In this document: one piece after another, positions 2,187-17,619 of the stretch
Layout of the letters: the number at the start of each line of letters is the position of its first letter
Position numbering within the stretch: the first letter of the stretch is position 1
Source: Burkholderia pyrrocinia
Lineage (GTDB): Bacteria > Pseudomonadota > Gammaproteobacteria > Burkholderiales > Burkholderiaceae
Length of the DNA: 64,000 bases
Assembly: GCF_018417535.1 (NCBI RefSeq)
Contig: NZ_CP070978.1
Coordinates: forward strand, 2,666,001 to 2,730,000
Direction of reading: 5' to 3'
Notes under the pieces: generated by a model
What the model saw: only the letters and a program-made list of their open reading frames with translations
Told to the model about the DNA's origin: nothing
Database searches by the model: none
Position numbers and translations under genes: made by a program

Positions 2187-4154
2187 TCAATCCTTCCCGA
2201 AACCGCCGAGCACGAGCGCCATCGCGCGGTCGATCGCGTCGTCCCATTGCCCCATGTGCGCCGCGCGCACGATCCGGATGCCCGGATAGAGCGCGGTGCG
2301 CGAGCCGGTTTCCCAGCGTGCGTCGGCCTTCGGGCTGAGCAGCAGCACGGCCGGCACGCCGAGCGCGCCGGCGAGGTGGATGTGCGCGGTGCAGGTGGTC
2401 ACCACGGCGTCCATCGCGAGCATCAGTGCCGCGAGATCGCTGAAATCGCCGATCGCGTGATGCGGGAACGTCACCGGCAGGTCCGATTGCTCGGACTGCG
2501 CGGACAGGTCGCGGTTGATGCAGTACGCGGCGTGGCCCTGCATCCGTGCAAGCGATGCGAAATCACGCAGGCTGGCCGCGCGATGGAAGCGCGCGTCGCT
2601 TTCGTCGCGGCCGCGCCAGTTGAGCCCGATGCGGCGCGTGCCGGGCGCGTGGCCGTCGCGCGACACGCGCTCGCGCCACGCGGCCGCGTGCGCCGGCGGG
2701 CACGACAGGTACGCGGCCGGCGCGCCTTCCGGCGCCGGCGCGTAGCCGAACCGGGCGGCGAGCATCAGGAACGAACACCAGTAGTCGTGCGCGATCTGCG
2801 ACGTGTCGGCCCACGCGCCGTGCGCGCCGATGAAGTCGATGCGCGGGAACGTATGGCGCAGCAGGCCCGTCAGCGCATCGGGGACGACCACGGTCACGCC
2901 CGCGCAGCCGAGCGCGTCCAGCGCATGCAGGTAGCGTGCGTACTGGAGCTGGTCGCCGGCGCCGCCGTAGCTGATCACGAGCAGCCGCTTGCCGTGCAGC
3001 GGCTGGCCCAGGTAGAGCCGCTCGGTCGGCAGCCCGAACTGCGCGGCCGTCAGCACGTTTTCGCTGGCGACTGTGGCGCGTGCGGCCTCGTCGCGCCGGC
3101 CGGCGCGCAGCAGCAGCGCCGAGCGCGCGAGTTCGATGCGCCCGCGCGCCGCGTCGGGCAGCGCGGCCGGATCGCCGAAGTGGTCGAGCGCCGCGAGCCC
3201 GGCGTCGGGCGCGCCGGCGAAGCCGTAGCACGACGCGAGCTGCAGCGCGATCGCATCGTCGTCGAGCCCGTGGCCGCGCGCGCGTTGCCAGCGGTCGATC
3301 GCATGCCCCCACTCGCAGCGCGACTCGTGGTCGAGCGCACGGTTCCAGTTCGTTTCGGGCGCGTCGGCGTCGACGGCAGTCGGGCTATCCGTGCCGCCTT
3401 CGGCCTCCGATGCGACGGCGAGCGGTTCGCCCGAGATGATCAGGCGTTGCCGGTCCCAGCGCGGGTTCGGCACGCACAGCATGTTCAGCGCGTCGACTCG
3501 GTAGAACGTGTAGTCGAGACCGGCGAACGTAGCGATGATCGGCGCCTCGCCGACCTTCCAGTATTCGATCCAGCACCACGGCAGATGCGCTTCGATCAGC
3601 CGGCACGCACCGCGCAGCGCGTCGACCTCCATCCCTTCGATGCCGAGCTTCAGGAAGTCGAGCCGCGGCAGGCCGAGCGAATCGAGCCTGACGACCGGCG
3701 TTGGCGTGCCGCCCGCCGATTGGCTGTCGACGAGCGACACCGTGCCGAAATCGGCATCCTTCCCGTAATCGATGTCGGGCACCTTCATCGTGCCGTTGGT
3801 GCTCGCGAGCCCCATGTTCAGCAGATGGAGGTTGTCGAGCTGGTTGAGCGCGATCGTGCCGCCGAGCGCGTGGAACAGCGTGCGCTGCGGTTCGAACGCA
3901 TAGACGCGGCCGCCGCGTTCGCGCAGCCGATGCGCGATCGGCACGCACACGAGCCCCGCATTCGCGCCGCCGTCCACCGCGATCGCGCCGTCGGGCAACT
4001 GATCGATCACCGGCAGCATCACGTCGAGCTCGCCCTGGATATGCGGCCGGCCGGTCTTGATCAGCGCCTCGGCCTGGAGATCGCAGTGCCGGTTGATGAC
4101 GAACGGGCCGTGGATCGAATCGATCACGACGAAATTGCGGACGGTCTGATTCAT
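2187..4154 (-). CDS. FkbM-family methyltransferase / glycosyltransferase fusion
   Basis: A 655-residue two-enzyme protein. Residues about 1-240 are an FkbM-type SAM-dependent methyltransferase: motif I DGGANAG at 61-67, YAFEPQ at 85-90, and a late motif LKLGIEGME at 168-176 where family members usually have an Asp in place of the Gly. Residues about 270-380 look like helical TPR-type repeats. Residues 389-655 resemble GT9/TPR-linked glycosyltransferases: a GGAGDQLQYAR start, an IGLNWRG strand, and a DFSDLAAL...TCTAHIHLAGALG region. It is the last gene of the run from the adhesin, 23 bases after a DUF2827 gene. Likely role (inference): transfer and O-methylation of a sugar on a cell-surface acceptor. 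I start at 4154; the frame open to 5009 is only the shadow of the upstream gene. Confidence 0.8.
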   Translation of the reverse strand: MNQTVRNFVVIDSIHGPFVINRHCDLQAEALIKTGRPHIQGELDVMLPVIDQLPDGAIAVDGGANAGLVCVPIAHRLRERGGRVYAFEPQRTLFHALGGTIALNQLDNLHLLNMGLASTNGTMKVPDIDYGKDADFGTVSLVDSQSAGGTPTPVVRLDSLGLPRLDFLKLGIEGMEVDALRGACRLIEAHLPWCWIEYWKVGEAPIIATFAGLDYTFYRVDALNMLCVPNPRWDRQRLIISGEPLAVASEAEGGTDSPTAVDADAPETNWNRALDHESRCEWGHAIDRWQRARGHGLDDDAIALQLASCYGFAGAPDAGLAALDHFGDPAALPDAARGRIELARSALLLRAGRRDEAARATVASENVLTAAQFGLPTERLYLGQPLHGKRLLVISYGGAGDQLQYARYLHALDALGCAGVTVVVPDALTGLLRHTFPRIDFIGAHGAWADTSQIAHDYWCSFLMLAARFGYAPAPEGAPAAYLSCPPAHAAAWRERVSRDGHAPGTRRIGLNWRGRDESDARFHRAASLRDFASLARMQGHAAYCINRDLSAQSEQSDLPVTFPHHAIGDFSDLAALMLAMDAVVTTCTAHIHLAGALGVPAVLLLSPKADARWETGSRTALYPGIRIVRAAHMGQWDDAIDRAMALVLGGFGKD

Positions 4155-4177
4155 GGGCAGGACGCGTGCGAAGGAGA

Positions 4178-5314
4178 TCAGCCGAGCGCGCGGCCGGCGA
4201 ACAGGTGCTGGATCTGCGCGGAATACGCGCGGACGTTGTGTTCGGCGAGCGTGTCGACCTGGTGCAGGCAGCGGCGCGCGGCTGCCGCGTAGTCGTCGAG
4301 CCGCGCGTCGTGCGTCTGAGCGGCGGTCGCGATCGCGCGCGCCGCATCGAAGATCTCGAAGTCCGGGTAGTAGTAGCCGACGTCGCGCAGGAACGGCGAG
4401 TTGTGCACGAGCGGGTAGTTGCCGTACAGCGCGTCGTACAGCAGGTAGTTGAGGCCGTTTTCCCAGTGGTGCGACACGACGATGTCGGTGTGATGCGCGG
4501 CCCACGCGACGAACGGCGCGCGCACGTCGGCCGTCGCCTTGCCGTCGCGCACCATCTCGAGTCCTAGCGCGAGGTGCTTGAAGGCGACGTTTTCCTTCTT
4601 GTCGAACGTGTTGGTCATGTACACGTGCTCGACGAGCTCCGGATGCTCGACGTAGCACGCGTTCGCGGCGAGCATCGGCACGATCGAGCTCTTCACGACG
4701 TTCAGGTTCGGTTCGAAGAACGCGATGCGCTTCGCCGGGCCGTGGTTGCGGTAGCCGAAGCGGGCCTTCAGTTCGGGATCGGCGCCGAGGCTGCGCTCGA
4801 TGAAATACGGCGACCAGATGTGCGGCAGCTCGATCACCGGCGCGCGATACACGGCCTGGAAATACGCCGCGCACGTGTGCATGTGCTGCGGGTTGGTCCA
4901 GATCTCGTCGAACTGCACGCGGTGCGGGTTCGGCCGCCAGTCGTTCTTCTCGAAGTTGATCGTCTCGACCGCGATCACGTAGTCGTTGCCGAAGCGGTAC
5001 GACACGCACTTGCCGCCGCGCTGGCGCACGACCTCGGTGTGCGACGGGTCGATGAACGCGTTCATCTCGATCAGCAGGTCGGTCTGGTGGACGACGGCCG
5101 ACAGCGGCCGCAGCGCGTCGCCGAACGCGTCCATCACCAGTGCTTGCGGGTACTCGGTGATGCCGTTGTCGTGCGCGAGCCAGACCTCGCCGATCAGCGG
5201 CGACTGCTTCAGCAGCATGTACAGGTACACGCAGTGCTGGTTCGCGCCGTTGTACCAGATCGACTGCGTCGCGTCGCGCTGCACGTTCATCGTTATCGCG
5301 ACATTGAGTTTCAT
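4178..5314 (-). CDS. DUF2827 protein, putative glycosyltransferase (copy 1)
   Basis: A 378-residue soluble protein of the DUF2827 family, which is found mainly in Burkholderia and its relatives and is usually annotated as glycosyltransferase-like; no activity is established to my knowledge. It shares with the two other copies here a near-N-terminal (S/A)(I/L)W(Y/E)NG motif, a PHIW(S/H)P motif, an EPN(L/I)...K(S/T) segment, and a C-terminal block starting VVSHHWENG and running through YPL(V/I)HNS to YYPDF. The HNS...YPDF block recalls the nucleotide-sugar half of GT-B enzymes (inference). It lies 31 bases downstream of a DUF4019 gene and 23 bases upstream of the FkbM/glycosyltransferase gene, so it is probably in one operon. 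Confidence 0.8.
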   Translation of the reverse strand: MKLNVAITMNVQRDATQSIWYNGANQHCVYLYMLLKQSPLIGEVWLAHDNGITEYPQALVMDAFGDALRPLSAVVHQTDLLIEMNAFIDPSHTEVVRQRGGKCVSYRFGNDYVIAVETINFEKNDWRPNPHRVQFDEIWTNPQHMHTCAAYFQAVYRAPVIELPHIWSPYFIERSLGADPELKARFGYRNHGPAKRIAFFEPNLNVVKSSIVPMLAANACYVEHPELVEHVYMTNTFDKKENVAFKHLALGLEMVRDGKATADVRAPFVAWAAHHTDIVVSHHWENGLNYLLYDALYGNYPLVHNSPFLRDVGYYYPDFEIFDAARAIATAAQTHDARLDDYAAAARRCLHQVDTLAEHNVRAYSAQIQHLFAGRALG

Positions 5315-5345
5315 ATCGGCTCCGGTGAGGCGGGCGGTGTTCGCC

Positions 5346-5813
5346 TTACTGCACGGCGCCTTGCGACTGGCGCGGCACGTAGCCTGTCAGGTGCCAGCGG
5401 CCGTCGTCGTCGAGGCGAAAGCTCAGCTTCTCGTACACGGTAGCGCCGCTTGTCAGCGTGGTTGCATAGTCGACGTTCGCGTAGAGCCCGTCGGGCATCG
5501 CCGATGCATTCGTATAGCGGATGCGGGTGATCTGCGCCCAGCCGCGATGGCTGACCGCGCCGACGGACTGGCGGGCCCGCTGCATGTCCGCCGCGAACGG
5601 ATCCTGCTTGATGCGTGCCTTCACGAACGCGGCGGCATCGCTCCACACCGCACCGTACTGGCCGGCGTCGAGCTGCTTGAACACCGCGTCCGAATCGCGG
5701 AGCAGCGTGTCGGCCGATTCGCCGGCGGATTGCGCATGCGCGCCGATCGCGATCGAAGCGACGGCGCAGCCGATCAGCCATTGGGCGCGGGTGAGGGGCG
5801 TGCGTGCGTTCAT
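5346..5813 (-). CDS. DUF4019 secreted protein
   Basis: A 155-residue protein with a Sec-type signal peptide (hydrophobic stretch then AHAQS, cleavage about residue 29). The mature part fits the DUF4019 pattern: an early helix with LDAGQYGAVWSDAA, a central RARQSVGAVSHRG segment and a C-terminal beta strand pair ending GRWHLTGY. Function is unknown; periplasmic location is expected. It sits between two DUF2827 genes with gaps of 31 and 25 bases, so it is cotranscribed with them. The start at 5813 is chosen because the signal peptide follows it directly; the longer frame to 5948 begins inside the upstream gene. Confidence 0.75.
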   Translation of the reverse strand: MNARTPLTRAQWLIGCAVASIAIGAHAQSAGESADTLLRDSDAVFKQLDAGQYGAVWSDAAAFVKARIKQDPFAADMQRARQSVGAVSHRGWAQITRIRYTNASAMPDGLYANVDYATTLTSGATVYEKLSFRLDDDGRWHLTGYVPRQSQGAVQ

Positions 5814-5838
5814 GTCGGGGTCCGGAAAGGGCGGCGCG

Positions 5839-6993
5839 TCATGCGTCGCGATAGAGGGTGGCGATCGCGTCCGTATAAGCGGCGACGTTCTCGGGGTTAT
5901 AGATGCTGACCGAGTCGAGCACGTGCTTCGACTGCTCGCGGTACGCATCGAGATTCGCGTCGTGCTCGGCGAACGCTTGCAGCAGCGCGCGGCCGCCGGC
6001 CTGGCAGTCGAAGTCCGGATAGAAATACCCGGCCTTGCCGAGGAACGGCGAGTTGTGGATCAGCGGATAGTCGCCGTACAGCAGTTCGTAATACAGGTAG
6101 TTCTGCGCGTTTTCCCACGTGTGCGACACCACCGCATCGCCGTACGCGGCCATGAACTCGTACACCGCATAGCGACTTTCGAACGTCGTGATGCCGTGCT
6201 CGACGATGTCGAGGCTCTTCGCGAAGTGGACGAAGGTTGCGTGCTCCTTGATGTGGATCGTGTTGCACACGCGCACGAACTCAAGGAATTTCGGATTGGC
6301 ACGGTATGCCTCTTCCGCGACCAGCATCGGGATGATGCTCGTCTTCACCATGCAGATGTTCGGCTCGAACATCGTCACGCGCCAGCGCGGCTTGCCGGGC
6401 TGATAGCCGAACGACAAACCGGCGCCGAGCGTCGCGCGCGCCTTGTCGAACAGCATCGGGTGCCAGATGTGCGGGACGATCGTGACGGGCGCGCGCAGGC
6501 CTGTCTGGTAATAGTGCAGGCACGAGCGCTCGAATTCGGGAATCGTCCACACCGCGTCGTACGGCGCGCCCGAGAACAGGAAGCCCGACGGCTTGTCGAA
6601 CATCGCGCGTTCGATGTCGATCACGTAGTCGTTGCCGACCCGCATCGTGACGACCTTGCCGCCGCGGTCGCGGAATGCGCGCAGGTAGTCGGCGCCGAAC
6701 TGCGCGCTCATTTCGATCAGCACGTCGCAGCGTTGCAGCGCTTCGTCCATCGACAGCAGCGGCACGTCCCATTCGCCGAGCATCATTTGCGGATCGGCGA
6801 CCTGTTCGCCGCCGTTCACCATCACGGCTTCCGCGACGAGCGGCGACTGGCGCAACAGCAGGATCAGCAGCAGGCAGTTCTGGAAGATGCCGTTTTCCCA
6901 CAGCGACTGGCCGGCGCCGCGCACGAACAGCGACACGCCGACGACGAGACGCTTGCCCTCGCCGGGCGCTTGACGGGCATTGGAGTCCGACAT
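5839..6993 (-). CDS. DUF2827 protein, putative glycosyltransferase (copy 2)
   Basis: A 384-residue paralogue of the neighbouring DUF2827 proteins. It keeps all the shared blocks: SLWENGIFQN near the N-terminus, PHIWHP in the middle, EPNICMVKTS, and VVSHTWENAQNYLYYELLYG followed by YPLIHNS and YFYPDF. No signal peptide or membrane span is seen, so cytoplasmic action on a precursor is likely. The ATG at 6993 follows the end of copy 3 by 14 bases; the longer frame to 7128 starts inside copy 3. Close packing and the shared strand argue for one mRNA. Confidence 0.8.
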   Translation of the reverse strand: MSDSNARQAPGEGKRLVVGVSLFVRGAGQSLWENGIFQNCLLLILLLRQSPLVAEAVMVNGGEQVADPQMMLGEWDVPLLSMDEALQRCDVLIEMSAQFGADYLRAFRDRGGKVVTMRVGNDYVIDIERAMFDKPSGFLFSGAPYDAVWTIPEFERSCLHYYQTGLRAPVTIVPHIWHPMLFDKARATLGAGLSFGYQPGKPRWRVTMFEPNICMVKTSIIPMLVAEEAYRANPKFLEFVRVCNTIHIKEHATFVHFAKSLDIVEHGITTFESRYAVYEFMAAYGDAVVSHTWENAQNYLYYELLYGDYPLIHNSPFLGKAGYFYPDFDCQAGGRALLQAFAEHDANLDAYREQSKHVLDSVSIYNPENVAAYTDAIATLYRDA

Positions 6994-7007
6994 GCGTATG
7001 CTCCGGT

Positions 7008-8153
7008 TCAGGCGACCAGACGCGAGACGAACGCGTCGAGGTTCGCGGGGTTGTCGATCGAGACGGACTGCAGCAGCCGGCCGGCCTTCGCGCGGTAGTC
7101 GTCGAGGCGTTCGTCGTGATGCAGCCACGCGTCGAGCAGCGCGCGGCCGCCCGCGGCCGAGTCGAAGTCCGGGTAGTAATAGCCGGCGTCGCCGAGCAGC
7201 GTCGAGTTGTGGATCAGCGGATAGCCGCCGTGCAGCACGTCGTAATACAGATAGTTCTGCGCGTTTTCCCAGTGATGGGACACGACCGCGTCCGCGTGGC
7301 GCGCCATGAAGCCCGGCAGGTCGATGCGCGGTTCGAAGGTCGCCTTGTGCTGGCGCACGAGATCGAGGCTGTTCGCGAAGTGCACGAAGGTCGGATGTTC
7401 CTTCATGTGCATCGAGTTGACGACGAACATGTGTTGCACCGCGTCAGGCCGTGCACGGTAGAACTCGTCGCACGCGAGCATCGGGTAGTGGCAGGATTTG
7501 GCGACCGAGATGTTCGGTTCGAGCATCGCCAGGCGCCACGGGCGGCGGCCGGGCCGATAGCCGAACGTCGCGCCTTCGTCGGCGAGCGCGGCGACGCGGC
7601 GATCGAGAAAGTACGGCGACCAGATGTGCGGCATCAGATGGACGGGCGCGCGCAGGATGGTCTGCAGCATCGGCGCCGCGGTCTTGTCGTATTGCGGCAG
7701 CAGCCACACTTCGTCGAACGGCGCGCCGTTGAAGATGTGCCCCGACGGTTTTCCGAAGATCGGGGTTTCGCACATGCCGGCATACACGTGCCCGCAGAAG
7801 AACGCGGCGATTTTCTTGCCGAGCGCCTTCATGTGCCTGAGCCATTCGACCGGCAACTGCGCGCCCAACTCGATCACGACGTCGAGTTCGTGCGTGACGT
7901 CGGCGGGCTTCACGAGCGGGATGTCGAGGCCGTCGAGTTCGAGGCCGGCCGGCAGTGCGTTGGCGTCGCCGCCGTTCAGGAAATAGACGGGGCCGACGCG
8001 ATCCGAGCGCTTGAGCATCATCGCGAGGAACGCGATGTTCTGGTGAATGCCGTTTTCCCAGATCGCCTGGCCGTCCCGCGCAAACAGCGAGATGCCGACG
8101 GCCGGCCGTTGCTTGCGGGTGCCGCCCGCGGCGGCTTCATTGATGTCCGTCAC
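7008..8153 (-). CDS. DUF2827 protein, putative glycosyltransferase (copy 3)
   Basis: A 381-residue DUF2827 protein, the first of the three copies in transcription order. It shares AIWENGIHQN, PHIWSP, EPNISVAKS and VVSHHWENAQNYLYYD with the other copies. In the C-terminal block it is closest to copy 2 (GDAGYYYPDF followed by GGRALL), suggesting tandem duplication. The start codon is GTG at 8153, preceded by an AGAGGAAA ribosome binding site at good distance. About 400 bases of non-coding DNA separate it from the OmpA-like gene, so it may have its own promoter. Confidence 0.8.
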   Translation of the reverse strand: MTDINEAAAGGTRKQRPAVGISLFARDGQAIWENGIHQNIAFLAMMLKRSDRVGPVYFLNGGDANALPAGLELDGLDIPLVKPADVTHELDVVIELGAQLPVEWLRHMKALGKKIAAFFCGHVYAGMCETPIFGKPSGHIFNGAPFDEVWLLPQYDKTAAPMLQTILRAPVHLMPHIWSPYFLDRRVAALADEGATFGYRPGRRPWRLAMLEPNISVAKSCHYPMLACDEFYRARPDAVQHMFVVNSMHMKEHPTFVHFANSLDLVRQHKATFEPRIDLPGFMARHADAVVSHHWENAQNYLYYDVLHGGYPLIHNSTLLGDAGYYYPDFDSAAGGRALLDAWLHHDERLDDYRAKAGRLLQSVSIDNPANLDAFVSRLVA

Positions 8154-8555
8154 CGGTTGGTTTCCTCTGCGGCGTCGTGCGTCCGGGCAGGGCGTCGAGC
8201 GTCTGGCCTGGAAGCGGCGTGCCGTGGATTGTCATGGTTGCATTCGCCGGTGCAGCGCGGCAGGCGAATCGGGCGACGTGGTTCGCGAGGGCGGCAGCCG
8301 GATTCCGGCGTGTCGTCGGGCACGCCTGGCACGGCGAGCGATCTTGGCAGGCAGCCCCGGCGACTGTCTGCGGCGATTGTGGCACGGAAATCGCCGGTTT
8401 GTGGAGGGCCATGACGAACTTTGACATAGCCACCGGCCAACGGGAGCGGGGCGCCGGCGCAGCGGCGCCCGCGTTGTCTGGCGGATGTCCGGAGGATTTC
8501 CGGCGCGGCGCTGGCGGCCGGCCGGATCGGGGCGCCGCGCGCGGCGGCCGCCCGC
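8154..8555. other. GC-rich intergenic region, no gene seen
   Basis: About 400 bases between the OmpA-like gene and the first DUF2827 gene. Frames crossing it are compositional shadows without domain or start signal. It presumably holds the 3' end of the adhesin/OmpA message and a promoter for the DUF2827 genes, but I cannot point to either. Confidence 0.5.
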
Positions 8556-9218
8556 TCAGTGCTGCAGCAGGATTTCGACGCGGCGGTTGCTGGCGCGGCC
8601 TTCGGGCGTCGCGTTGGACGCGACCGGATCGGCCTTGCCGCGGCCCGTGACCGTCAGCGTGTCGGTCTTCAGACCGTGCGCCTTCAGGTAGGCGGCGACG
8701 GATTCGGCGCGGCGCTTCGACAGCGCGAGGTTGTAGTCGTCGCCGCCCACCGAATCCGTAAAGCCGGTAACCGTCACCTGCGAGTACGTGCGGTCTGCGC
8801 GCTCGCTCAGCAGCCGGTCGAGCGATTCGCGCGCGGTCGGCGCGAGCGTCGCGTGGTCGGTCGCGAACAGCGCGTCGCCCGACAGGTTCACGTGTTCGAC
8901 GACGGCAGCAGCCGGTTCGGCGGCCGAGGCCGCTTCGGCCGGCGCGGCACCGCACTGGAACACGAGCGTCGCGGGATCGGATTTGTCGCGCAGCGCGCGG
9001 GCCGAGTCGACGGCGCGTACGGGCTGGTCGCCGCAGATCTTGCGGGCGGCCTTCATGCAGGTCTGCGGACCGGACAGCAGGCCGTGGCAGTCCACCTGAA
9101 ACGTGCGCACGCCGTCGCGCGGCTGCAGTTCGGAGGCGCTGAAGGTCGGGCCGGATGCGGTCGAGCACGCGGCGAGGGCCATTGCGGAAAGCGCGAGCGC
9201 AAGAGCGAGTTTGTTCAC
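8556..9218 (-). CDS. OmpA-family lipoprotein
   Basis: A 220-residue outer-membrane lipoprotein. The signal peptide ends in a lipobox (LAAC, Cys18). Residues about 50-95 contain a Cys-bearing unique segment. Residues about 110-220 are an OmpA C-terminal peptidoglycan-binding domain: LFATDHATLAPTARESLDRL, VTGFTDSVGGDDYNLALSKRRAESV, and a closing RASNRRVEI. It lies 124 bases downstream of the giant adhesin gene on the same strand. Small OmpA-type lipoproteins next to trimeric autotransporters are thought to help anchor or stabilise them (known for the SadB/SadA idea; inference here). Confidence 0.9.
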   Translation of the reverse strand: MNKLALALALSAMALAACSTASGPTFSASELQPRDGVRTFQVDCHGLLSGPQTCMKAARKICGDQPVRAVDSARALRDKSDPATLVFQCGAAPAEAASAAEPAAAVVEHVNLSGDALFATDHATLAPTARESLDRLLSERADRTYSQVTVTGFTDSVGGDDYNLALSKRRAESVAAYLKAHGLKTDTLTVTGRGKADPVASNATPEGRASNRRVEILLQH

Positions 9219-9249
9219 GGTGACGTCCTCAAAACTTGGGTTGACCGAG

Positions 9250-9274
9250 GCCGGCCGCGGGTTGCGCGGCCGGC
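9250..9274. other. Strong GC hairpin between adhesin and ompA-like genes
   Basis: GCCGGCCGCG (9250-9259) pairs perfectly with CGCGGCCGGC (9265-9274) around a 5-nt loop. There is no T tract, so it is more likely a processing or partial attenuation element than a full terminator. It could set the ratio of adhesin to lipoprotein mRNA. Confidence 0.4.
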
Positions 9275-9342
9275 TCGTCCTGCCGTCGGGGGCGCCGCAG
9301 GCCGGCCGGCTGGCGAGCCGGGTGGCCTGGCGGCGCGACGCG

Positions 9343-12300
9343 TTACTTCCACTGGTACAGCATGCCGGCGCCGATCACCTTCTGACCGCCGCTGAAGCCG
9401 CCGTTGATCGACGCCTTCAGGTTCTCCGTGATGCGGGCCTGCATGTTGACCGCCATCGCCTTCTGGCCGAGGAAGGTCGACGTACCGACACCCATGCCGA
9501 AGTTGGCGTCGCGATCGAGCTGCGGGATCGACGCCATCGCGCCGACGGCCGCGATACCCTGCTTCGCCATCTGGTCGGTCTGCTGCAGTTGCGAACCCAG
9601 CGAGTTGATCTGTGTCTGCTGGCCCGACAGTGCCGTCGACAGCGTCGTCTGCACCTGCGTCAGCTGGTTCACGTTGACCGCGTCGGTGCCTTGCGTACCC
9701 GGCGCGACGTTCACGATCTGGCGCTGCTGCGTGTCGCTGCCGACCGAGACGACGTTCGAGCGGCCGCCGTCCGTCGAATTCGCGCCGATCGCCACCGAGT
9801 TCGAGCCGGCGGTGACGGTCGGGTGATCGCTGCCCGTGCCGTTCATGTCGGCGGCGATGCCGTTGCTGTTCAGCGTACGCGTCTGGTTGTTGTTGATCGT
9901 CGTCGACAGCGAGTTCAGCGTGTTGCTGATGTTCGTCACGCCGGTCGACAGCGATGCCACGTTGCTGTTCGTCGTGCTCAGGCCGGTGGACAGCGAGCCG
10001 ATGCCCGTCGAGGTCGACGTCGACAGCGAGTTGACGTTGCTGTTGGTCGAGCTCAGGCCCGTCGACAGCGAGTTGATCGCGGTGGAGGTCGACGTGGACA
10101 GCGACGTCACCGAGCTGTTCGTCGAGCTCAGGCCGGTGGACAGCGAGCCGATGCCGGTCGACAGCGACGCGACGTTCGACGCGGTGGACGTCGACAGCGC
10201 GTTGACCGCCTGGTTAGTCGCGTTGAGCTGGCTGCCGTTGATCGCGTCCGTGCTGCTGGCCGAGATCCGGCCGGCGGCGACGTTCGTGATCTGGCGCGTG
10301 GTGCCCGTGGTAGCGTCACCGACGCTGACCACGCCGACCGGCGAACTGCCCGCGAACAAGTACGTGACGCCGCCGATCGTGGCGCTCGACGTCGGGTTCG
10401 CGGTACTCGTGACCGAGTTCGCACCGAGCGCGATCGAGTTGGCGACGTTGGCTTGCGCGTTCGTGCCGAAGGCGAGCGCGTCGGCGGCCGTGGCCTTGGC
10501 ACCCGAGCCGTAGGCTTGTGCGCCGATGGCGCTAGCCGTGGCCTGGTTGCCCAGCGCGATCGTGTTGTCCGCGGTGGCCTGGTTCGAGCTGCCAAGTGCG
10601 AGCGCGCTGGCGCCGTTTGCCGTGTTTGCGTTGCCGAGCGCCACTGCGCCGTTGCCGGTCGCCGTGTCGTTCGCGCCCATCGCTACCGCGCCGGTGCCCG
10701 TCGCGATGCTCGGATCGCCGATCGCGACCGCGCCGTCGCCGCTCGCGGTGTTGCCGGAGCCGATCGACACGGCCTTGCCGCCCGTTGCCGATGCGTTCTG
10801 GCCGATTGCGACCGCGCCTGCCGACTGCGCGTTCGAGCCATCGCCGACCGCGACGCTGCTTGCACCTGCCGCGCTGGCGTTGACGCCGGCCGCGAGGGCG
10901 TTGGGGCCCGTTGCGCCGTCGTTGGCGTAGTTGCCTTGCTGCGTGCCGTTGTCGTTGATGCTGTAGTAGTGCGTCTTCGCGGCGTTGATCGCGGTCGAGG
11001 TCGACGTGGACAGCGACGTCACCGAGCTGTTCGTCGAGCTCAGGCCGGTGGACAGCGAGCCGATGCCGGTCGAGGTCGAGGTCGACAGGGACAGGATCGT
11101 GCTGTTGGTCGAGCTCAGTCCGGTGGACAGCGAGGTGATGCCGGTCGAGGTCGACGTGGACAGCGAGGTGATCGAGCTGTTCGCCGAGGACAGGCCCGTC
11201 GAAGTCGAGGTGGACAGGGAGCTGATCGAGCTGTTTGCGGACGACAGACCCGTCGACGTGGAGGTCGACAGCGACGACACCGAGCTGTTGGTCGAGCTCA
11301 GGCCGGTGGACAGCGAGCCGATGCCGGTCGAGGTCGAGGTCGACAGCGAGGTGATGGAGCTGTTCGCGGAGGACAGACCCGTCGAGGTCGACGTGGACAG
11401 CGAAGTGATCGAGCTGTTCGCCGACGAGAGGCCGGTCGAAGTCGAGGTCGACAGCGACGACACCGAGCTGTTGGTCGAGCTCAGGCCGGTGGACAGCGAA
11501 CTGATGCCGGTTGAGGTCGAAGTGGACAGCGAAGTGATGGAGCTGTTGGCGGACGACAGGCCCGTCGAGGTCGACGTGGACAGCGAGTCGATCGAACTGT
11601 TGGCCGAGGACAGGCCGGTCGACGTCGAGGTGGACAGCGAGGTGATCGAGCTGTTGGCCGACGACAAGCCCGTCGACGTGGAAGTCGACAGTGACGTGAT
11701 CGAGCTGTTGGCCGAAGAGAGGCCCGTCGAAGTGGAAGTCGACAGTGAGGTGATCGAGCTGTTCGCCGACGACAAACCGGTCGAGGTCGAGGTCGACAGC
11801 GACGTGATGGAGCTGTTGGCCGACGAGAGGCCGGTCGAAGTCGACGTGGACAGCGAGGTGATGGAGCTGTTCGCCGACGACAGACCCGTCGAAGTCGAGG
11901 TCGACAACGACGTGATCGAGCTGTTCGCGGAGGACAGACCCGTCGACGTGGAGGTGGACAGCGAGTCGATCGAGCTGTTAGCCGACGACAGACCGGTCGA
12001 GGTGGACGTGGACAGCGACGTGATCGAGCTGTTGGCCGAGGACAGACCCGTCGACGTGGAAGTCGACAGTGAGGTGATCGAGCTGTTGGCCGACGACAGG
12101 CCGGTCGACGTGGAAGTCGACAGCGAGGTGATCGAGCTGTTGGCCGACGAGAGGCCGGTCGAGGTCGACGTGGACAGCGAGTCGATCGAGCTGTTGGCCG
12201 ACGACAGACCGGTCGAGGTGGACGTGGACAGCGACGTGATCGAGCTGTTGGCCGAGGACAGACCCGTCGACGTGGAAGTCGACAGTGAGGTGATCGAGCT

Positions 12301-15300
12301 GTTGGCCGACGACAGGCCGGTCGACGTGGAAGTCGACAGCGAGGTGATCGAGCTATTCGCCGACGAGAGGCCGGTCGAGGTCGACGTGGACAGCGAGGTG
12401 ATCGAGCTATTCGCCGACGACAGGCCGGTCGACGTGGAAGTCGACAACGACGTGATCGAGCTGTTGGCCGACGACAGGCCGGTCGAGGTCGAGGTCGACA
12501 GTGACGTGATCGAGCTGTTGGCCGACGACAGGCCGGTCGAGGTCGAGGTGGACAACGACGTGATCGAGCTGTTCGCCGACGACAGGCCGGTCGACGTGGA
12601 AGTCGACAGCGAGGTGATCGAGCTGTTAGCCGACGAGAGGCCCGTCGACGTGGAGGTCGACAGCGACGACACCGAGCTGTTGGTCGAGCTCAGACCGGTG
12701 GACAGCGAGCTGATGCCGGTGGAGGTCGAAGTGGACAGCGACGTGATGGAGCTGTTGGCCGAGGACAGACCGGTCGAGGTCGACGTGGACAACGAATCGA
12801 TCGAGCTGTTGGCCGACGACAAGCCCGTCGACGTGGAGGTCGACAGCGACGACACCGAGCTGTTGGTCGAGCTCAGGCCGGTGGACAGCGAGCTGATGCC
12901 GGTCGAGGTCGAGGTGGACAGCGAGGTGATGGAGCTGTTGGCGGAGGACAGACCCGTCGAGGTGGACGTGGACAGCGACGTGATCGAGCTGTTAGCCGAC
13001 GACAGACCCGTCGAGGTCGAGGTGGACAACGACGTGATCGAGCTGTTCGCCGACGACAGGCCGGTCGACGTGGAAGTCGACAGCGAGGTGATCGAGCTGT
13101 TAGCCGACGAGAGGCCCGTCGACGTGGAGGTCGACAGCGACGACACCGAGCTGTTGGTCGAGCTCAGGCCGGTGGACAGCGAGCTGATGCCGGTCGAGGT
13201 CGAAGTCGACAGCGACGTGATGGAGCTGTTCGCCGACGACAGGCCGGTCGAGGTGGAGGTCGACAGCGAAGTGATCGAGCTGTTGGCCGAGGACAGGCCG
13301 GTCGAGGTCGACGTGGACAGCGAAGTGATCGAGCTGTTGGCCGACGACAGGCCGGTCGAGGTCGAGGTCGACAGCGACGTGATCGAGCTGTTGGCTGACG
13401 ACAGGCCGGTCGACGTTGACGTCGACAACGAGGTGATCGAGCTGTTGGCGGACGACAGGCCGGTCGAGGTCGAGGTCGACAACGACGTGATCGAGCTATT
13501 GGCCGACGACAAGCCGGTCGAAGTCGAGGTCGACAGCGAAGTGATCGAGCTGTTGGCGGATGACAGGCCGGTCGACGTCGAGGTGGACAGCGAGGTGATC
13601 GAACTGTTCGCCGACGACAGGCCGGTCGAAGTCGACGTGGACAGCGAGGTGATCGAACTGTTGGCCGAGGACAGACCCGTCGAAGTCGACGTGGACAACG
13701 ACGTGATCGAGCTGTTAGCCGACGACAAGCCCGTCGACGTGGAGGTCGACAGCGACGACACCGAGCTGTTGGTCGAGCTCAGGCCGGTGGACAGCGAGCT
13801 GATGCCGGTGGAGGTCGAAGTCGACAGCGACGTGATCGAGCTGTTGGCCGAGGACAGACCGGTCGAGGTCGACGTGGACAGCGAATCGATCGAGCTGTTC
13901 GCGGAGGACAGACCCGTCGAGGTCGACGTGGACAGCGAAGTGATCGAGCTGTTGGCCGAGGACAGACCGGTCGAGGTCGACGTGGACAGCGAGGTGATCG
14001 AGCTGTTAGCGGACGACAGACCGGTCGAAGTCGAGGTCGACAGTGACGTGATGGAGCTGGTGGCCGAGGACAAACCCGTCGACGTCGAGGTGGACAACGA
14101 CGTGATCGAGCTGTTCGCCGACGACAGACCGGTCGACGTAGAAGTAGACAGGGACGTGATGGAGCTGTTGGCCGACGACAGGCCGGTCGAGGTCGAGGTT
14201 GACAGCGAGGTGATCGAACTGTTGGCCGACGACAAACCCGTCGAAGTCGAAGTGGACAGCGACGTGACAGAGCTGTTGGTCGAGCTGAGACCGGTCGACA
14301 GCGAGGTGATGCCCGTCGACAGCGACGAGATCGCGCTGCTGGACGACGACACCGTCGTCGACAGCGAATTCACGACCGAATTGGTTGCAAAGAGCTGGGA
14401 GCCGTTGATCGCGTCGGTGCTGTTTGCCGTGATTTGGCCGGCCGCGACATTGGTGATCTGGCGCGTGGTATTCGTGCTCGCGTTGCCGACGCTGACCACG
14501 CTGCTCGGATTACCGCCCGCGAACGTGCTGGTCACGCCGCCGACGGTACCGGTCGGTGTCGGGTTGGGTGGCGCGGTGACGGAGTTGCTGCCGAGTGCGA
14601 CGTCGCCGGCGTTGTTGGCGATTGCATTCGGGCCGATCGCGACCGAGTCGGTTCCAAGCGCCTGGCTGTCTGCCGCCGTCGAATTCGCGTGGAAGTACTT
14701 GATGCCCTGGCTGTTGATGTTGTCGATCGCCGAGCCGACGCTGTTGGCGGTCGACGTCGTGCCGTTCGAGTTGTAGGTCGTGTAGGCCGGCGCGGAGACC
14801 GTCCCGGTCGTCGGGTCGTACTTGGCGCCGCCGCCGAGTGCCGATGCCGTGCTGGTGCCGAGGTTGTCCGTCTTGGTCGTGACCGTGCTCAGTCCGGTCG
14901 ACAGCGAGTTGATGCCGGTCGACGTGGAGGTGGACAGCGAAGTGATCGAACTGTTGGCCGACGACAGGCCCGTCGAGGTCGACGTGGACAGCGACGTCAC
15001 CGAGCTGTTGGTCGAGCTCAGGCCAGTGGACAGCGAGTTGATGCCGGTCGACGTGGAGGTCGACAGCGAGGTGATCGAGCTGTTAGCCGACGACAGACCC
15101 GTCGAGGTCGACGTGGACAACGACGTCACCGAGCTGTTGGTCGAGCTCAGGCCAGTGGACAGCGAGTTGATGCCGGTCGACGTGGAGGTCGACAGCGAGG
15201 TGATCGAGCTGTTAGCCGACGACAGGCCCGTCGAGGTCGACGTGGACAACGACGTCACCGAGCTGTTGGCCGAGCTCAGGCCAGTGGACAGCGAGTTGAT

Positions 15301-17619
15301 GCCGGTCGACGTGGAGGTCGACAGCGAGGTGATCGAACTGTTGGCCGACGACAGGCCCGTCGAGGTCGACGTGGACAGGGACGTGATGGAACTGTTGGCC
15401 GACGACAGACCCGTCGAGGTCGACGTGGACAGCGACGTCACCGAGCTGTTGGTCGAGCTCAGACCAGTGGACAGCGAGTTGATGCCGGTCGACGTGGAAG
15501 TCGACAGCGAAGTGATCGAGCTGTTGGCCGACGACAGGCCAGTCGAGGTCGACGTGGACAACGACGTCACCGAGCTGTTGGCCGAGCTCAGGCCAGTGGA
15601 CAGCGAGTTGATGCCGGTCGACGTGGAGGTCGACAGCGAGGTGATGGAACTGTTGGCCGACGACAGGCCCGTCGAGGTCGACGTGGACAGCGACGTCACC
15701 GAGCTGTTGGTCGAGCTCAGACCAGTCGACAGCGAGTTGATGCCGGTCGACGTCGAGGTGGACAGCGAAGTGATCGAACTATTAGCCGACGACAGGCCCG
15801 TCGAGGTCGACGTGGACAACGACGTCACCGAGCTGTTGGTCGAGCTCAGGCCAGTGGACAGCGAGTTGATGCCGGTCGACGTGGAGGTCGACAGCGAGGT
15901 GATCGAGCTGTTAGCCGACGACAGACCCGTCGAGGTCGACGTGGACAACGACGTCACCGAGCTGTTGGTCGAGCTCAGGCCAGTGGACAGCGAGTTGATG
16001 CCGGTCGACGTGGAGGTCGACAGCGAGGTGATCGAACTGTTGGCCGACGACAGGCCCGTCGAGGTCGACGTGGACAACGACGTCACCGAGCTGTTGGTCG
16101 AGCTCAGACCAGTGGACAGCGAGTTGATGCCGGTCGACGTGGAGGTGGACAGCGAAGTGATCGAACTGTTAGCCGACGACAGGCCAGTCGAGGTCGACGT
16201 GGACAACGACGTCACCGAGCTGTTGGCCGAGCTCAGGCCAGTGGACAGCGAGTTGATGCCGGTCGACGTGGAGGTCGACAGCGAAGTGATCGAACTGTTA
16301 GCCGACGACAGGCCCGTCGAGGTCGACGTGGACAACGACGTCACCGAGCTGTTGGTCGAGCTCAGGCCAGTGGACAGCGAGTTGATGCCGGTCGACGTGG
16401 AGGTCGACAGCGAAGTGATCGAACTGTTGGCCGACGACAGGCCCGTCGAGGTCGACGTGGACAACGACGTCACCGAGCTGTTGGCCGAACTCAGGCCAGT
16501 GGACAGCGAGTTGATGCCGGTCGACGTGGAGGTCGACAACGAGGTGATCGAGCTATTCGCCGACGAGATGCCGGTCGACGTGGAGGTCGACAACGACGTG
16601 ATCGAGCTGTTGGCCGACGACAGGCCGGTCGAGGTCGAAGTGGACAGCGACGTGATCGAGCTCCGTGCCGACGAAATGCCGGTCGAAGTCGACGTCGACA
16701 GGCTGCTGATCGCGCTCGTCGTGGTGCTCATCCCGGTGCTGAGCTGAGCTACCGTGACGGCGTCCTGGGGGGCGGAACCGTCGGCGACGTTGGTGATTCG
16801 GCGCAGGTTGGACGAACTGCCGACCGAGAATTCAGACGCCGGTGCGGCTGTACCGGTCAAGTACCCGGTGCCGGTCGGCGCGGCTGCGCCGGTCACGCTA
16901 CCCTGACCGATTGCGACGCTGTTTGCATACTGCGCAGAGGCATTGAGGCCGATTGCGATACCCGATGTGGCGGTCGACGCGACGGACGACTGCCCGCCGA
17001 TCGCGATGCTGTCAGAAGCGGCCGCCTGCGCGCCCTTCGTTGCGTTGCTGCCGATCGCGATCGAACCTGCGCCCGACGCGATGGTCGAGTTCGCCTGCGA
17101 CAGCGGCGTCGTGCCGTTGCCGCCCGCACCGCCGATCGCGACCGAGTTCAGCGCGTTCGCCGTCGAGCCGAAGCCGAGCGCGGTGGCGCCTGCGCCGCTC
17201 GCGGTGGTTTCGAGGCCGGCGGCCACGCCCCACAGGCCGGCTGACGACAGCATGCCGTTGGCGACGGCACCGTTACCGGTCGCTTGCGCGAATGAACCGT
17301 AAACCGTGACGCCGGTCCAGCCGTTGCCGTTGGAGTTACACCCGGCCACGACCGAATACGTGCCGGAACCGTCGCCGGCCTGGTTTTGCGTGCCGCCCGG
17401 GTTGACGCGGCCGACTGCGCTGTTGCTTCCCGTGAAGCAGGTCTGCTGTGTGTTGAGCGTGTTGGCCTCGGCGAGCCCCGGCAGGCTGATCGCCAGTGCT
17501 GCGACTGCTGCGACCACGACGGCCGACTTGTTCGGCTTGCCCCGTGCCGAATCGTGTTCCGATGCCGCGACCCAGGCTCCAAGAGCTTCGTTCCAGATCG
17601 AGCGGTACGTGCGGTTCAT
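9343..17619 (-). CDS. Giant trimeric autotransporter adhesin (type Vc)
   Basis: A 2,758-residue YadA/Hia-type adhesin. Residues 1 to about 52 are an extended signal peptide (MNRTYRSIWNEALGAWVAAS, then a hydrophobic core ending AEA). Head modules with YadA-like AIG/ALG repeats and neck motifs occur at about 16.77-17.46 kb, 14.38-14.88 kb and 10.2-10.98 kb. Between them lie two long Ser/Thr-rich stalks built on SLSTSTSTGLSSANSSIT. The C-terminus is a YadA membrane anchor (about 9343-9610) that ends VIGAGMLYQWK with an aromatic residue near the end, as usual for porin-like anchors. A GGAGG lies 9 bases before the ATG. Three identical chains should form a fibre on the outer membrane that binds host or surface ligands; the ligand cannot be read from sequence. 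Downstream genes suggest it is glycosylated. Confidence 0.95.
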   Translation of the reverse strand: MNRTYRSIWNEALGAWVAASEHDSARGKPNKSAVVVAAVAALAISLPGLAEANTLNTQQTCFTGSNSAVGRVNPGGTQNQAGDGSGTYSVVAGCNSNGNGWTGVTVYGSFAQATGNGAVANGMLSSAGLWGVAAGLETTASGAGATALGFGSTANALNSVAIGGAGGNGTTPLSQANSTIASGAGSIAIGSNATKGAQAAASDSIAIGGQSSVASTATSGIAIGLNASAQYANSVAIGQGSVTGAAAPTGTGYLTGTAAPASEFSVGSSSNLRRITNVADGSAPQDAVTVAQLSTGMSTTTSAISSLSTSTSTGISSARSSITSLSTSTSTGLSSANSSITSLSTSTSTGISSANSSITSLSTSTSTGINSLSTGLSSANSSVTSLSTSTSTGLSSANSSITSLSTSTSTGINSLSTGLSSTNSSVTSLSTSTSTGLSSANSSITSLSTSTSTGINSLSTGLSSANSSVTSLSTSTSTGLSSANSSITSLSTSTSTGINSLSTGLSSTNSSVTSLSTSTSTGLSSANSSITSLSTSTSTGINSLSTGLSSTNSSVTSLSTSTSTGLSSANSSITSLSTSTSTGINSLSTGLSSTNSSVTSLSTSTSTGLSSANSSITSLSTSTSTGINSLSTGLSSTNSSVTSLSTSTSTGLSSANSSITSLSTSTSTGINSLSTGLSSANSSVTSLSTSTSTGLSSANSSITSLSTSTSTGINSLSTGLSSTNSSVTSLSTSTSTGLSSANSSITSLSTSTSTGLSSANSSITSLSTSTSTGINSLSTGLSSANSSVTSLSTSTSTGLSSANSSITSLSTSTSTGINSLSTGLSSTNSSVTSLSTSTSTGLSSANSSITSLSTSTSTGINSLSTGLSSTNSSVTSLSTSTSTGLSSANSSITSLSTSTSTGINSLSTGLSTVTTKTDNLGTSTASALGGGAKYDPTTGTVSAPAYTTYNSNGTTSTANSVGSAIDNINSQGIKYFHANSTAADSQALGTDSVAIGPNAIANNAGDVALGSNSVTAPPNPTPTGTVGGVTSTFAGGNPSSVVSVGNASTNTTRQITNVAAGQITANSTDAINGSQLFATNSVVNSLSTTVSSSSSAISSLSTGITSLSTGLSSTNSSVTSLSTSTSTGLSSANSSITSLSTSTSTGLSSANSSITSLSTSTSTGLSSANSSITSLSTSTSTGLSSATSSITSLSTSTSTGLSSANSSITSLSTSTSTGLSSANSSITSLSTSTSTGLSSANSSIDSLSTSTSTGLSSANSSITSLSTSTSTGISSLSTGLSSTNSSVSSLSTSTSTGLSSANSSITSLSTSTSTGLSSANSSITSLSTSTSTGLSSANSSITSLSTSTSTGLSSANSSITSLSTSTSTGLSSANSSITSLSTSTSTGLSSANSSITSLSTSTSTGLSSANSSITSLSTSTSTGLSSANSSITSLSTSTSTGLSSANSSITSLSTSTSTGLSSANSSITSLSTSTSTGISSLSTGLSSTNSSVSSLSTSTSTGLSSANSSITSLSTSTSTGLSSANSSITSLSTSTSTGLSSANSSITSLSTSTSTGLSSANSSITSLSTSTSTGISSLSTGLSSTNSSVSSLSTSTSTGLSSANSSIDSLSTSTSTGLSSANSSITSLSTSTSTGISSLSTGLSSTNSSVSSLSTSTSTGLSSANSSITSLSTSTSTGLSSANSSITSLSTSTSTGLSSANSSITSLSTSTSTGLSSANSSITSLSTSTSTGLSSANSSITSLSTSTSTGLSSANSSITSLSTSTSTGLSSANSSITSLSTSTSTGLSSANSSITSLSTSTSTGLSSANSSIDSLSTSTSTGLSSANSSITSLSTSTSTGLSSANSSITSLSTSTSTGLSSANSSITSLSTSTSTGLSSANSSIDSLSTSTSTGLSSANSSITSLSTSTSTGLSSANSSITSLSTSTSTGLSSANSSITSLSTSTSTGLSSANSSITSLSTSTSTGLSSANSSITSLSTSTSTGLSSANSSITSLSTSTSTGLSSANSSIDSLSTSTSTGLSSANSSITSLSTSTSTGISSLSTGLSSTNSSVSSLSTSTSTGLSSANSSITSLSTSTSTGLSSANSSITSLSTSTSTGIGSLSTGLSSTNSSVSSLSTSTSTGLSSANSSISSLSTSTSTGLSSANSSITSLSTSTSTGITSLSTGLSSTNSTILSLSTSTSTGIGSLSTGLSSTNSSVTSLSTSTSTAINAAKTHYYSINDNGTQQGNYANDGATGPNALAAGVNASAAGASSVAVGDGSNAQSAGAVAIGQNASATGGKAVSIGSGNTASGDGAVAIGDPSIATGTGAVAMGANDTATGNGAVALGNANTANGASALALGSSNQATADNTIALGNQATASAIGAQAYGSGAKATAADALAFGTNAQANVANSIALGANSVTSTANPTSSATIGGVTYLFAGSSPVGVVSVGDATTGTTRQITNVAAGRISASSTDAINGSQLNATNQAVNALSTSTASNVASLSTGIGSLSTGLSSTNSSVTSLSTSTSTAINSLSTGLSSTNSNVNSLSTSTSTGIGSLSTGLSTTNSNVASLSTGVTNISNTLNSLSTTINNNQTRTLNSNGIAADMNGTGSDHPTVTAGSNSVAIGANSTDGGRSNVVSVGSDTQQRQIVNVAPGTQGTDAVNVNQLTQVQTTLSTALSGQQTQINSLGSQLQQTDQMAKQGIAAVGAMASIPQLDRDANFGMGVGTSTFLGQKAMAVNMQARITENLKASINGGFSGGQKVIGAGMLYQWK
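10990..14370 (-). repeat. Tandem coding repeat, stalk block 2 (54-bp units)
   Basis: Several dozen in-frame 54-bp units, each encoding a variant of SLSTSTSTGLSSANSSIT. Some are replaced by the longer form GISSLSTGLSSTNSSVSS. Twelve of 18 residues per unit are Ser or Thr. Unit DNA differs mostly at synonymous third positions (for example alternating CTG/TTG Leu codons) while the protein stays constant. Unit number is a multiple of three bases, so recombination would change fibre length without breaking the frame. Confidence 0.95.
14890..16745 (-). repeat. Tandem coding repeat, stalk block 1 (129-bp higher-order units)
   Basis: In this block the 18-residue unit alternates strictly with a 25-residue unit (SLSTSTSTGINSLSTGLSS then TNSSVT). 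This gives a 43-residue, 129-bp higher-order repeat present about fourteen times. Two places carry an extra 54-bp unit. The regular alternation differs from block 2 and suggests amplification of a 129-bp unit. Confidence 0.9.

Follow-up and report, generated by a model that had tools for sequence, protein, structure and literature searches.

The window analyzed here, a stretch of 64,000 nucleotides (G000:C2:2666001-2730000) from a genome of 8.54 Mb in three contigs, encodes a giant Ser/Thr-rich trimeric autotransporter adhesin (TAA) and, beside it, a cassette of genes for proteins of the family DUF2827 (PF10933). We predict, at a probability of roughly 0.7, that the cassette is a dedicated system for the cytoplasmic O-glycosylation of hydroxyl-coated TAA stalks. 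The observed basis for this is the gene content, the stalk repeat, the predicted GT-B fold of one DUF2827 protein, the recurrence of DUF2827 paralogs as sets A, B and C, and the co-occurrence of DUF2827 with Ser/Thr-rich TAAs, which suggests that the enzymes sugar-coat the fiber.

The adhesin, a protein of 2,758 amino acids, has the features of a type 5c TAA: an N-terminal extended signal peptide region (ESPR), a coiled-coil stalk and a C-terminal YadA anchor (Table 1). An earlier note on this DNA had described it as a giant Ser/Thr-repeat adhesin, and this description was borne out. The stalk repeat unit, SLSTSTSTGLSSANSSIT, has Ser or Thr at 12 of its 18 positions, and the motif S(L/V)STSTST occurs 89 times in the protein, spaced by exactly 18 residues in 65 of the 88 intervals. 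Together, the two Ser/Thr-rich stalk segments span 1,720 residues, of which 1,128 are Ser or Thr and 6 are charged, with no Lys and a single Arg. Read as a coiled coil, SLSTSTSTGLSSANSSIT would place Ile, Leu, Thr, Leu and Ala in the core at spacings of 3-4-4-3-4, so that 11 of the 13 remaining, outward positions would be Ser or Thr. Because the stalk is nearly devoid of trypsin sites, standard proteomics would hardly detect it. That the Ser/Thr repeat is a by-product of a DNA repeat was ruled out by the complete open reading frame (ORF) with its ESPR and anchor.

The three DUF2827 proteins of the window match PF10933 with E values of 1.4e-109, 8e-157 and 1.9e-161, and PDB sequence searches with DUF2827 profiles gave no match to solved glycosyltransferases. 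We modeled one DUF2827 protein, that encoded at 7008-8153, with AlphaFold2 from an alignment of 59 family members (pLDDT 93.6, pTM 0.90). The model has two Rossmann-like domains and matches solved GT-B enzymes over its full length, so that the GT-B fold foreseen in the earlier note was recovered. A Foldseek search of the PDB gave 219 matches at E <=0.001; the 50 matches listed comprised glycosyltransferases, glycosyl or sugar-phosphate synthases, pseudo-glycosyltransferases and one trehalose phosphatase N-terminal domain, and among them were BshA, HepE, WaaG, O-GlcNAc transferase homologs and pneumococcal GtfA. VIA-align scores of the model were 25.1 for BshA, 23.4 for TarM, 23.3 for HepE and 20.5 for SdgB. 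The DUF2827 proteins are very probably GT-B glycosyltransferases.

The 59 aligned sequences, which cover groups A, B and C, share 20 invariant columns; none of them lacks E212-P-N214, K219, R276, N300, H315-N316 or an acid at position 305. These residues bear on the idea that DUF2827 proteins, while GT-B in fold, bind sugar or act like chaperones, guiding the long, uncharged stalk to export and transferring no sugar. A stalk with so few charges could require a chaperone of its own, and HMW1C has been proposed as the chaperone of its adhesin, according to passages of PMC8151025. However, loss of catalysis would usually relax some residues of this kind, and we regard the idea as most improbable.

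To place the pair in a wider setting, we took as DUF2827 loci the best 80 of 365 confirmed places in one contig scan, of which 79 were fetched and which are thus nearer relatives; the closest come from species of the Burkholderia cepacia complex. A TAA was found in 64 of the 79 loci, as an ORF with a YadA anchor in 59 and as a Ser/Thr-rich ORF cut off by the end of the stretch in 5 (L064, L066, L069, L073 and L075; ESPR verified for L064 only), whereas chance alone, at the TAA density of the window's genome, would give about 1.7 such loci. In 5 of the 79 a contig edge lies near the DUF2827 genes (L012, L020, L031, L063 and L081), L031 having 2.2 kb without a TAA. Stretches that carry a TAA come from genera such as Burkholderia, Paraburkholderia, Ralstonia, Caballeronia, Glaciimonas, Variovorax, Ramlibacter, Noviherbaspirillum and Frateuria. 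We expressed Ser/Thr richness as the fraction of Ser and Thr in the richest 300-residue window of a TAA. When TAAs were compared singly, ORFs of <400 amino acids being excluded, the median was 0.65 for DUF2827-linked TAAs (n = 54) and 0.25 for unlinked ones (n = 27), the TAAs not being independent of one another. The comparison included 20 control TAAs of the genus, taken in list order from genomes of at most seven contigs, minus the window's genome and one known to be linked; 3 of the 20 turned out to be DUF2827-linked and were counted as such. Beside the TAA of unlinked control L111, an apparent decayed DUF2827 gene was seen by eye (L111:14951-16228), and its relative L112 has intact copies.

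Counted by genome, DUF2827 was matched in 2 of 299 sampled genomes of the phylum, 6 of 300 of the order and 62 of 65 of the genus, so the reading proposed here suggests a concrete function for a family found in nearly all sampled members of the genus and in related bacteria. In the order, TAA matches were present in all 6 DUF2827 genomes versus 23 of the 294 genomes without DUF2827 (P = 5e-7), and the two were adjacent in 5 of the 6. The best TAA richness in these six genomes was 0.69 (G000, the window's genome), 0.67 (G310), 0.66 (G170), 0.52 (G465), 0.52 (G623) and 0.50 (G599), the last three values coming from TAAs cut by contig ends. The maximum in DUF2827-lacking genomes was 0.37 in the order (21 genomes, 41 TAA ORFs) and 0.33 in the phylum (30 genomes, 40 ORFs); none of the 52 such genomes measured (21 from the order, 30 from the phylum and 1 from the genus) had a Ser/Thr-rich TAA. 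Excluded for want of an ORF of at least 400 amino acids were 2 of the 23 DUF2827-lacking TAA genomes of the order (G499 and G484) along with 6 of another 36 from the phylum, and in genomes with many TAAs only fetched regions were measured (40 + 40 regions). Thus, as the earlier note had expected, the distribution of DUF2827 depends on that of Ser/Thr-rich TAAs (in the order, six of six genomes versus none of the 21 measured without it), and the enzyme genes co-occur with that of the proposed acceptor, as is required of a dedicated adhesin glycosylation system.

Such a distribution could also arise by hitch-hiking, that is, by common descent and horizontal transfer with no functional link, or the stalk could be glycosylated by the general PglL system. 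Many of the loci are orthologous Burkholderia loci, and PglL glycosylates serine in Burkholderia proteins (passages of PMC8423747). Against hitch-hiking, two genomes, G170 (Collimonas-like by its gene order) and Hydromonas G644, carry DUF2827 away from their TAAs and yet retain rich ones, with four TAA ORFs at 0.63-0.66 in G170 and values of 0.58-0.60 in the four measured of six TAA matches in G644. Within the genus, moreover, all 62 DUF2827 genomes have a TAA match (in G301 the DUF2827 match spans profile positions 311-362 only and the TAA is a 95-residue fragment), whereas of the three genomes without DUF2827, G338 and G349 have no TAA match and G314 has three ordinary TAAs (0.15-0.32). As for PglL, its sites lie mainly in disordered Ala/Pro-rich regions, as passages of PMC8423747 describe them, unlike the window stalk, and two papers on Burkholderia glycoproteomes make no use of the word "autotransporter" in their main text. 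We therefore consider hitch-hiking or modification by PglL very unlikely. Two TAAs of Hydromonas G643 (0.19 and 0.21) are both cut by contig ends and too short to judge, and in G642 and G646 TAAs were counted.

A further alternative is that the DUF2827 glycosyltransferases build a separate surface glycan (lipopolysaccharide [LPS], capsule or exopolysaccharide) that partners an adhesin itself left unmodified. In a Hydromonas genome, DUF2827 is clustered with GT34-like, GT7C-like and methyltransferase genes (L058:12339-19381) with no TAA in the stretch, and two structural neighbors of DUF2827 are WaaG, an LPS enzyme, and TarM, a teichoic acid enzyme. However, DUF2827 tracks the Ser/Thr richness of TAAs rather than mere surface glycans, DUF2827-lacking relatives surely produce LPS, and the cassette genes scanned contain no match to a lipid-carrier, flippase or polymerase family. 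On balance, we hold a separate glycan to be unlikely. Two other loci, L055 and L056, resemble L058 in ORF layout.

Several observations weigh against stalk glycosylation by DUF2827. No TAA lies in the stretch in 10 of the 79 loci (six from Collimonas, three of Hydromonas type, of which L055 is a metagenome-assembled genome [MAG], and one from a Spartobacteria MAG), and the Spartobacteria MAG G645 (2.2 Mb) has DUF2827 and no TAA match at all. Some linked TAAs are poor in Ser/Thr (0.30 in L037, 0.38 in L046, 0.34 in L047 and 0.29 in L068) or middling (0.44-0.49 in L065, L080, L085, L112 and L114), and the other four TAAs measured in G170 are ordinary (0.21-0.28). Conversely, there are rich TAAs with no DUF2827 nearby (0.67 in L103, 0.61 in L125, 0.58 in L102, L118 and L123, and 0.50 in L119), all six from genomes that carry DUF2827 elsewhere. 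Most of the 79 loci belong to relatives of Burkholderia and lack independence; counted by genus, the contrast in the order is a rich TAA in four of four genera with DUF2827 versus none of 15 without (P = 2.6e-4). G465 and G623 have two divergent DUF2827 copies each, which can be assigned clearly to none of the groups (margins of 4-12 bits). A common fold, as modeled here, is by itself no proof of enzyme activity. The mark of the GT4 family is an E-x7-E motif; in DUF2827, with the register set by eye from the following G-x-P, all 59 sequences keep the second acid and 53 of them have Asn in place of the first, which would make the active site non-canonical. Finally, we infer the enzymatic activity, acceptor, cytoplasmic site, O-linkage, step order and sugar, and no glycan, activity or mutant is known.

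Weighing these points, we consider the adhesin the probable acceptor of the DUF2827 enzymes and an O-glycosidic linkage to stalk Ser/Thr the best guess. Under stalk glycosylation, DUF2827 A, B and C (in the window A, B and a copy X, with C just outside) would be cytoplasmic GT-B glycosyltransferases acting on the Ser/Thr-rich stalk prior to or during export, probably stepwise or as a complex, and putting one or more sugars on the hydroxyls expected at the coiled-coil surface. The modified adhesin would leave via Sec, then trimerize and be anchored by its YadA barrel, aided by the OmpA-like lipoprotein. In some species only, the FkbM fusion protein may add methyl groups to the glycan or cap it. 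The chances are about even for the fuller picture, in which DUF2827 would be a putatively new glycosyltransferase family whose conserved A-B(-C) set, co-inherited with the adhesin and found also on plasmids, is dedicated to O-glycosylating the hydroxyl-coated coiled coils of TAA stalks, the stalk having evolved into a mucin-like bottlebrush. With nearly all surface positions of the 18-residue unit being Ser or Thr and charges almost gone, sugar would give the stalk solubility and stiffness.

The sorting of DUF2827 genes into recurring paralog sets A, B and C in two cassette types is newly described here. In a tree of 93 sequences, support was 1.00 for group C and 0.98 for group B with the window copy X at its base; groups A1 and A2 had support of 1.00 each and were not sisters. 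In tree loci holding both kinds, A1 pairs with B1 and A2 with B2, which defines the two types, both present in the window's genome. The window cassette is type 2 (A2-B2, with C beyond the window edge), and a second cassette, L009, is type 1 (A1-B1-C). By profile scores, counting copies that cover at least 320 profile positions and contain no masked letters, A and B occur together in 76 of the 79 loci (all but L063, L072 and L081) and C occurs in 61.

Table 1. Features of the TAA-DUF2827 region in the window
Feature	Position	Strand	Evidence
Giant Ser/Thr-rich TAA, 2,758 aa, proposed acceptor	9343..17619	-	ESPR, YadA_stalk and YadA_anchor domain matches
ESPR, residues 1-44	17488..17619	-	domain match
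Ser/Thr-rich stalk segment 1, residues 302-911, 64% Ser/Thr	14887..16716	-	composition
Ser/Thr-rich stalk segment 2, residues 1091-2200, 66% Ser/Thr	11020..14349	-	composition
YadA-like membrane anchor, residues 2699-2757	9349..9525	-	domain match
OmpA-like lipoprotein (PF00691), general TAA partner	8556..9218	-	Pfam match
DUF2827 group A (A2), predicted GT-B glycosyltransferase	7008..8153	-	PF10933, structure model, tree, profile scores
DUF2827 group B (B2), fold taken from 46%-identical neighbor	5839..6993	-	PF10933, tree, profile scores
DUF4019 protein, recurrent in cassettes	5346..5813	-	Pfam match
Additional DUF2827 copy (X), a divergent group B relative	4178..5314	-	PF10933, tree, profile scores
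FkbM methyltransferase with weakly GT9-like C-terminal part, accessory	2187..4154	-	Pfam match
EAL-domain gene adjoining cassette	690..1565	+	Pfam match

Downstream of the TAA, the minus strand carries in order the OmpA-like lipoprotein, two DUF2827 genes, DUF4019, the third DUF2827 gene and the FkbM fusion; the start codons of three downstream genes were placed by hand at an internal ATG. The earlier note had read this order correctly for the lipoprotein, the three DUF2827 genes and FkbM (PF05050, E 5.4e-13), but the supposed glycosyltransferase half of the fusion resembles GT9 only weakly (E 0.012, 15.4 bits against a cut-off of 22), and a structure prediction of the fusion reached a pLDDT of only 41. 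It had overlooked DUF4019 amid the DUF2827 genes, a fourth DUF2827 gene on the plus strand that ends 22 bases left of the window edge (L008:8836-9978), and the second cassette of the genome, L009, which comprises EAL, TAA (2,544 aa, 1,340 of them Ser/Thr), OmpA, three DUF2827 genes with a small unassigned gene, a peptidylprolyl isomerase (PPIase) and a tetratricopeptide repeat (TPR) protein with a C-terminal part like the one in the FkbM fusion (phmmer E 7e-17). All seven DUF2827 matches of the genome fall in these two cassettes; YadA-anchor matches number nine. Of the adhesin-modifying system that the note had proposed, the co-occurrence of DUF2827 with TAAs and the predicted GT-B fold are supported, whereas O-methylation is weak: an FkbM domain is found in only 11 of the 79 loci, another 15 having short matches to the fusion, and FkbM methylation may be an optional extra. 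Of 17 control TAA regions that lack an intact DUF2827 gene, 11 carry the OmpA lipoprotein, which, as a general TAA partner, is no evidence for glycosylation. FkbM and OmpA were rejected as core cassette parts on their occurrence across loci and control regions. A scan for promoters and terminators was uninformative: it gave two promoter-like sites, both minus-strand and located upstream of the adhesin, where shuffled sequence gave a mean of 1.4.

In a plasmid collection, DUF2827 was matched in 18 records, some of them chromosome-sized, and both plasmid regions opened hold the TAA-DUF2827 pair. A Burkholderia glumae plasmid has a TAA of richness 0.64 with two DUF2827 genes, and the conjugative plasmid pBMC401 of B. 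ambifaria has a YadA-like gene, OmpA, two DUF2827 genes and DUF4019. In pBMC401, richness is 0.29 within the TAA as annotated and 0.63 in the open frame that precedes its annotated start. No group A DUF2827 turned up in the phage records.

A long Ser-rich adhesin with neighboring GT-B glycosyltransferases is known from the Gram-positive serine-rich repeat glycoproteins (SRRPs; GtfA/GtfB) and Sdr adhesins (SdgA/SdgB), and both SdgB and GtfA are structural neighbors of the DUF2827 model. Here, in contrast, the acceptor would be a Gram-negative TAA with a coiled-coil stalk, and DUF2827 profiles find no sequence match to the solved enzymes. Where Gram-positive SRRPs have an LPXTG anchor and accessory Sec export (SecA2/SecY2), the window adhesin has an ESPR and a YadA anchor, and no accessory Sec or LPXTG families were found among the cassette genes scanned. 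The BAHT heptosyltransferases (Aah, TibC) are related to GT9 and have classical beta-helix passengers as acceptors, whereas DUF2827 is a different family: PF01075 (GT9) gave no match up to E 10 in the 7008-8153 protein, and GT9 likeness is confined here to accessory TPR or FkbM proteins (E 6.6e-9 in L125; the window value is below the cut-off). A Pfam scan gave no HMW1C match for any of the window's three DUF2827 proteins at E 0.01, or for one of them at E 10; HMW1C-type enzymes N-link at NX(S/T), whereas the window stalk offers Ser/Thr. According to passages of PMC8151025, cytoplasmic glycosylation of type 5 adhesins by N-glycosyltransferases (NGTs; HMW1C type, acting on HMW1, EtpA and some TAAs) and BAHTs is known; the process proposed here would share its cytoplasmic site with both and dedicated Ser/Thr O-glycosylation with the latter. 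If correct, it would add to the NGT and BAHT routes (PMC8151025) a further one whose acceptor is a trimeric coiled coil.

BCAM2418 of B. cenocepacia is described in passages of PMC7142374 and PMC11054960 as a TAA of 2,775 aa with SLST repeats and, by its size, its repeat and the presence of a cassette in B. cenocepacia (L017), is probably the ortholog of the window TAA. Its authors tied Ser/Thr richness to possible O-glycosylation of the repeats (passages of PMC7142374), and its coverage in a surface proteome was limited to residues 205-282 of 2,775 (passages of PMC11054960), which the lack of trypsin sites alone may explain. The passages on BCAM2418 propose no modifying enzyme, and DUF2827 is absent from the main text of PMC7142374. 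Stalk glycosylation by DUF2827, if real, would account for the charge-free Ser/Thr stalks of BCAM2418 and similar Burkholderia adhesins. In full-text literature that leaves out most subscription journals, the one paper found to mention DUF2827 is on a cysteine database, and no title on such a DUF2827 system was among the matches listed for TAAs with glycosyltransferase or glycosylation. Type 5 adhesin glycosylation and the guess for BCAM2418 are thus already known; the paralog sets, the two cassette types and the plasmid occurrence are new.

Further genes recur around these loci. EAL genes flank both cassettes of the window's genome (window:690-1565; L009:1142-2041) and are frequent in other fetched loci; control of the cassette by cyclic di-GMP is possible. 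A protein of ~210 residues, with a likely signal peptide by eye (L009:13416-14057; L052:8086-8763; L082:6894-7709), adjoins DUF2827 in Collimonas, Variovorax and Ramlibacter and also lies beside the Ser/Thr-rich TAAs of L102, L114 and L125. It has no Pfam match in the three copies scanned and no NCBIfam match in one, and is a possible further cassette member. In a Terrimicrobiaceae MAG, a short contig carries the only DUF2827 gene together with a fragment of a repeat protein that is RTX-like by eye (L063:1-522), so acceptors other than TAAs may exist. TPR proteins akin to that of the second cassette lie near other TAAs in L106 (G000:C3:74501-94500), L110, L116 and L125, with no DUF2827 within the fetched stretch of L106, L110 or L125; the one in L106 is accompanied by a PPIase and that in L125 matches GT9 (PF01075). 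These proteins are perhaps a second type of TAA-linked glycosyltransferase.
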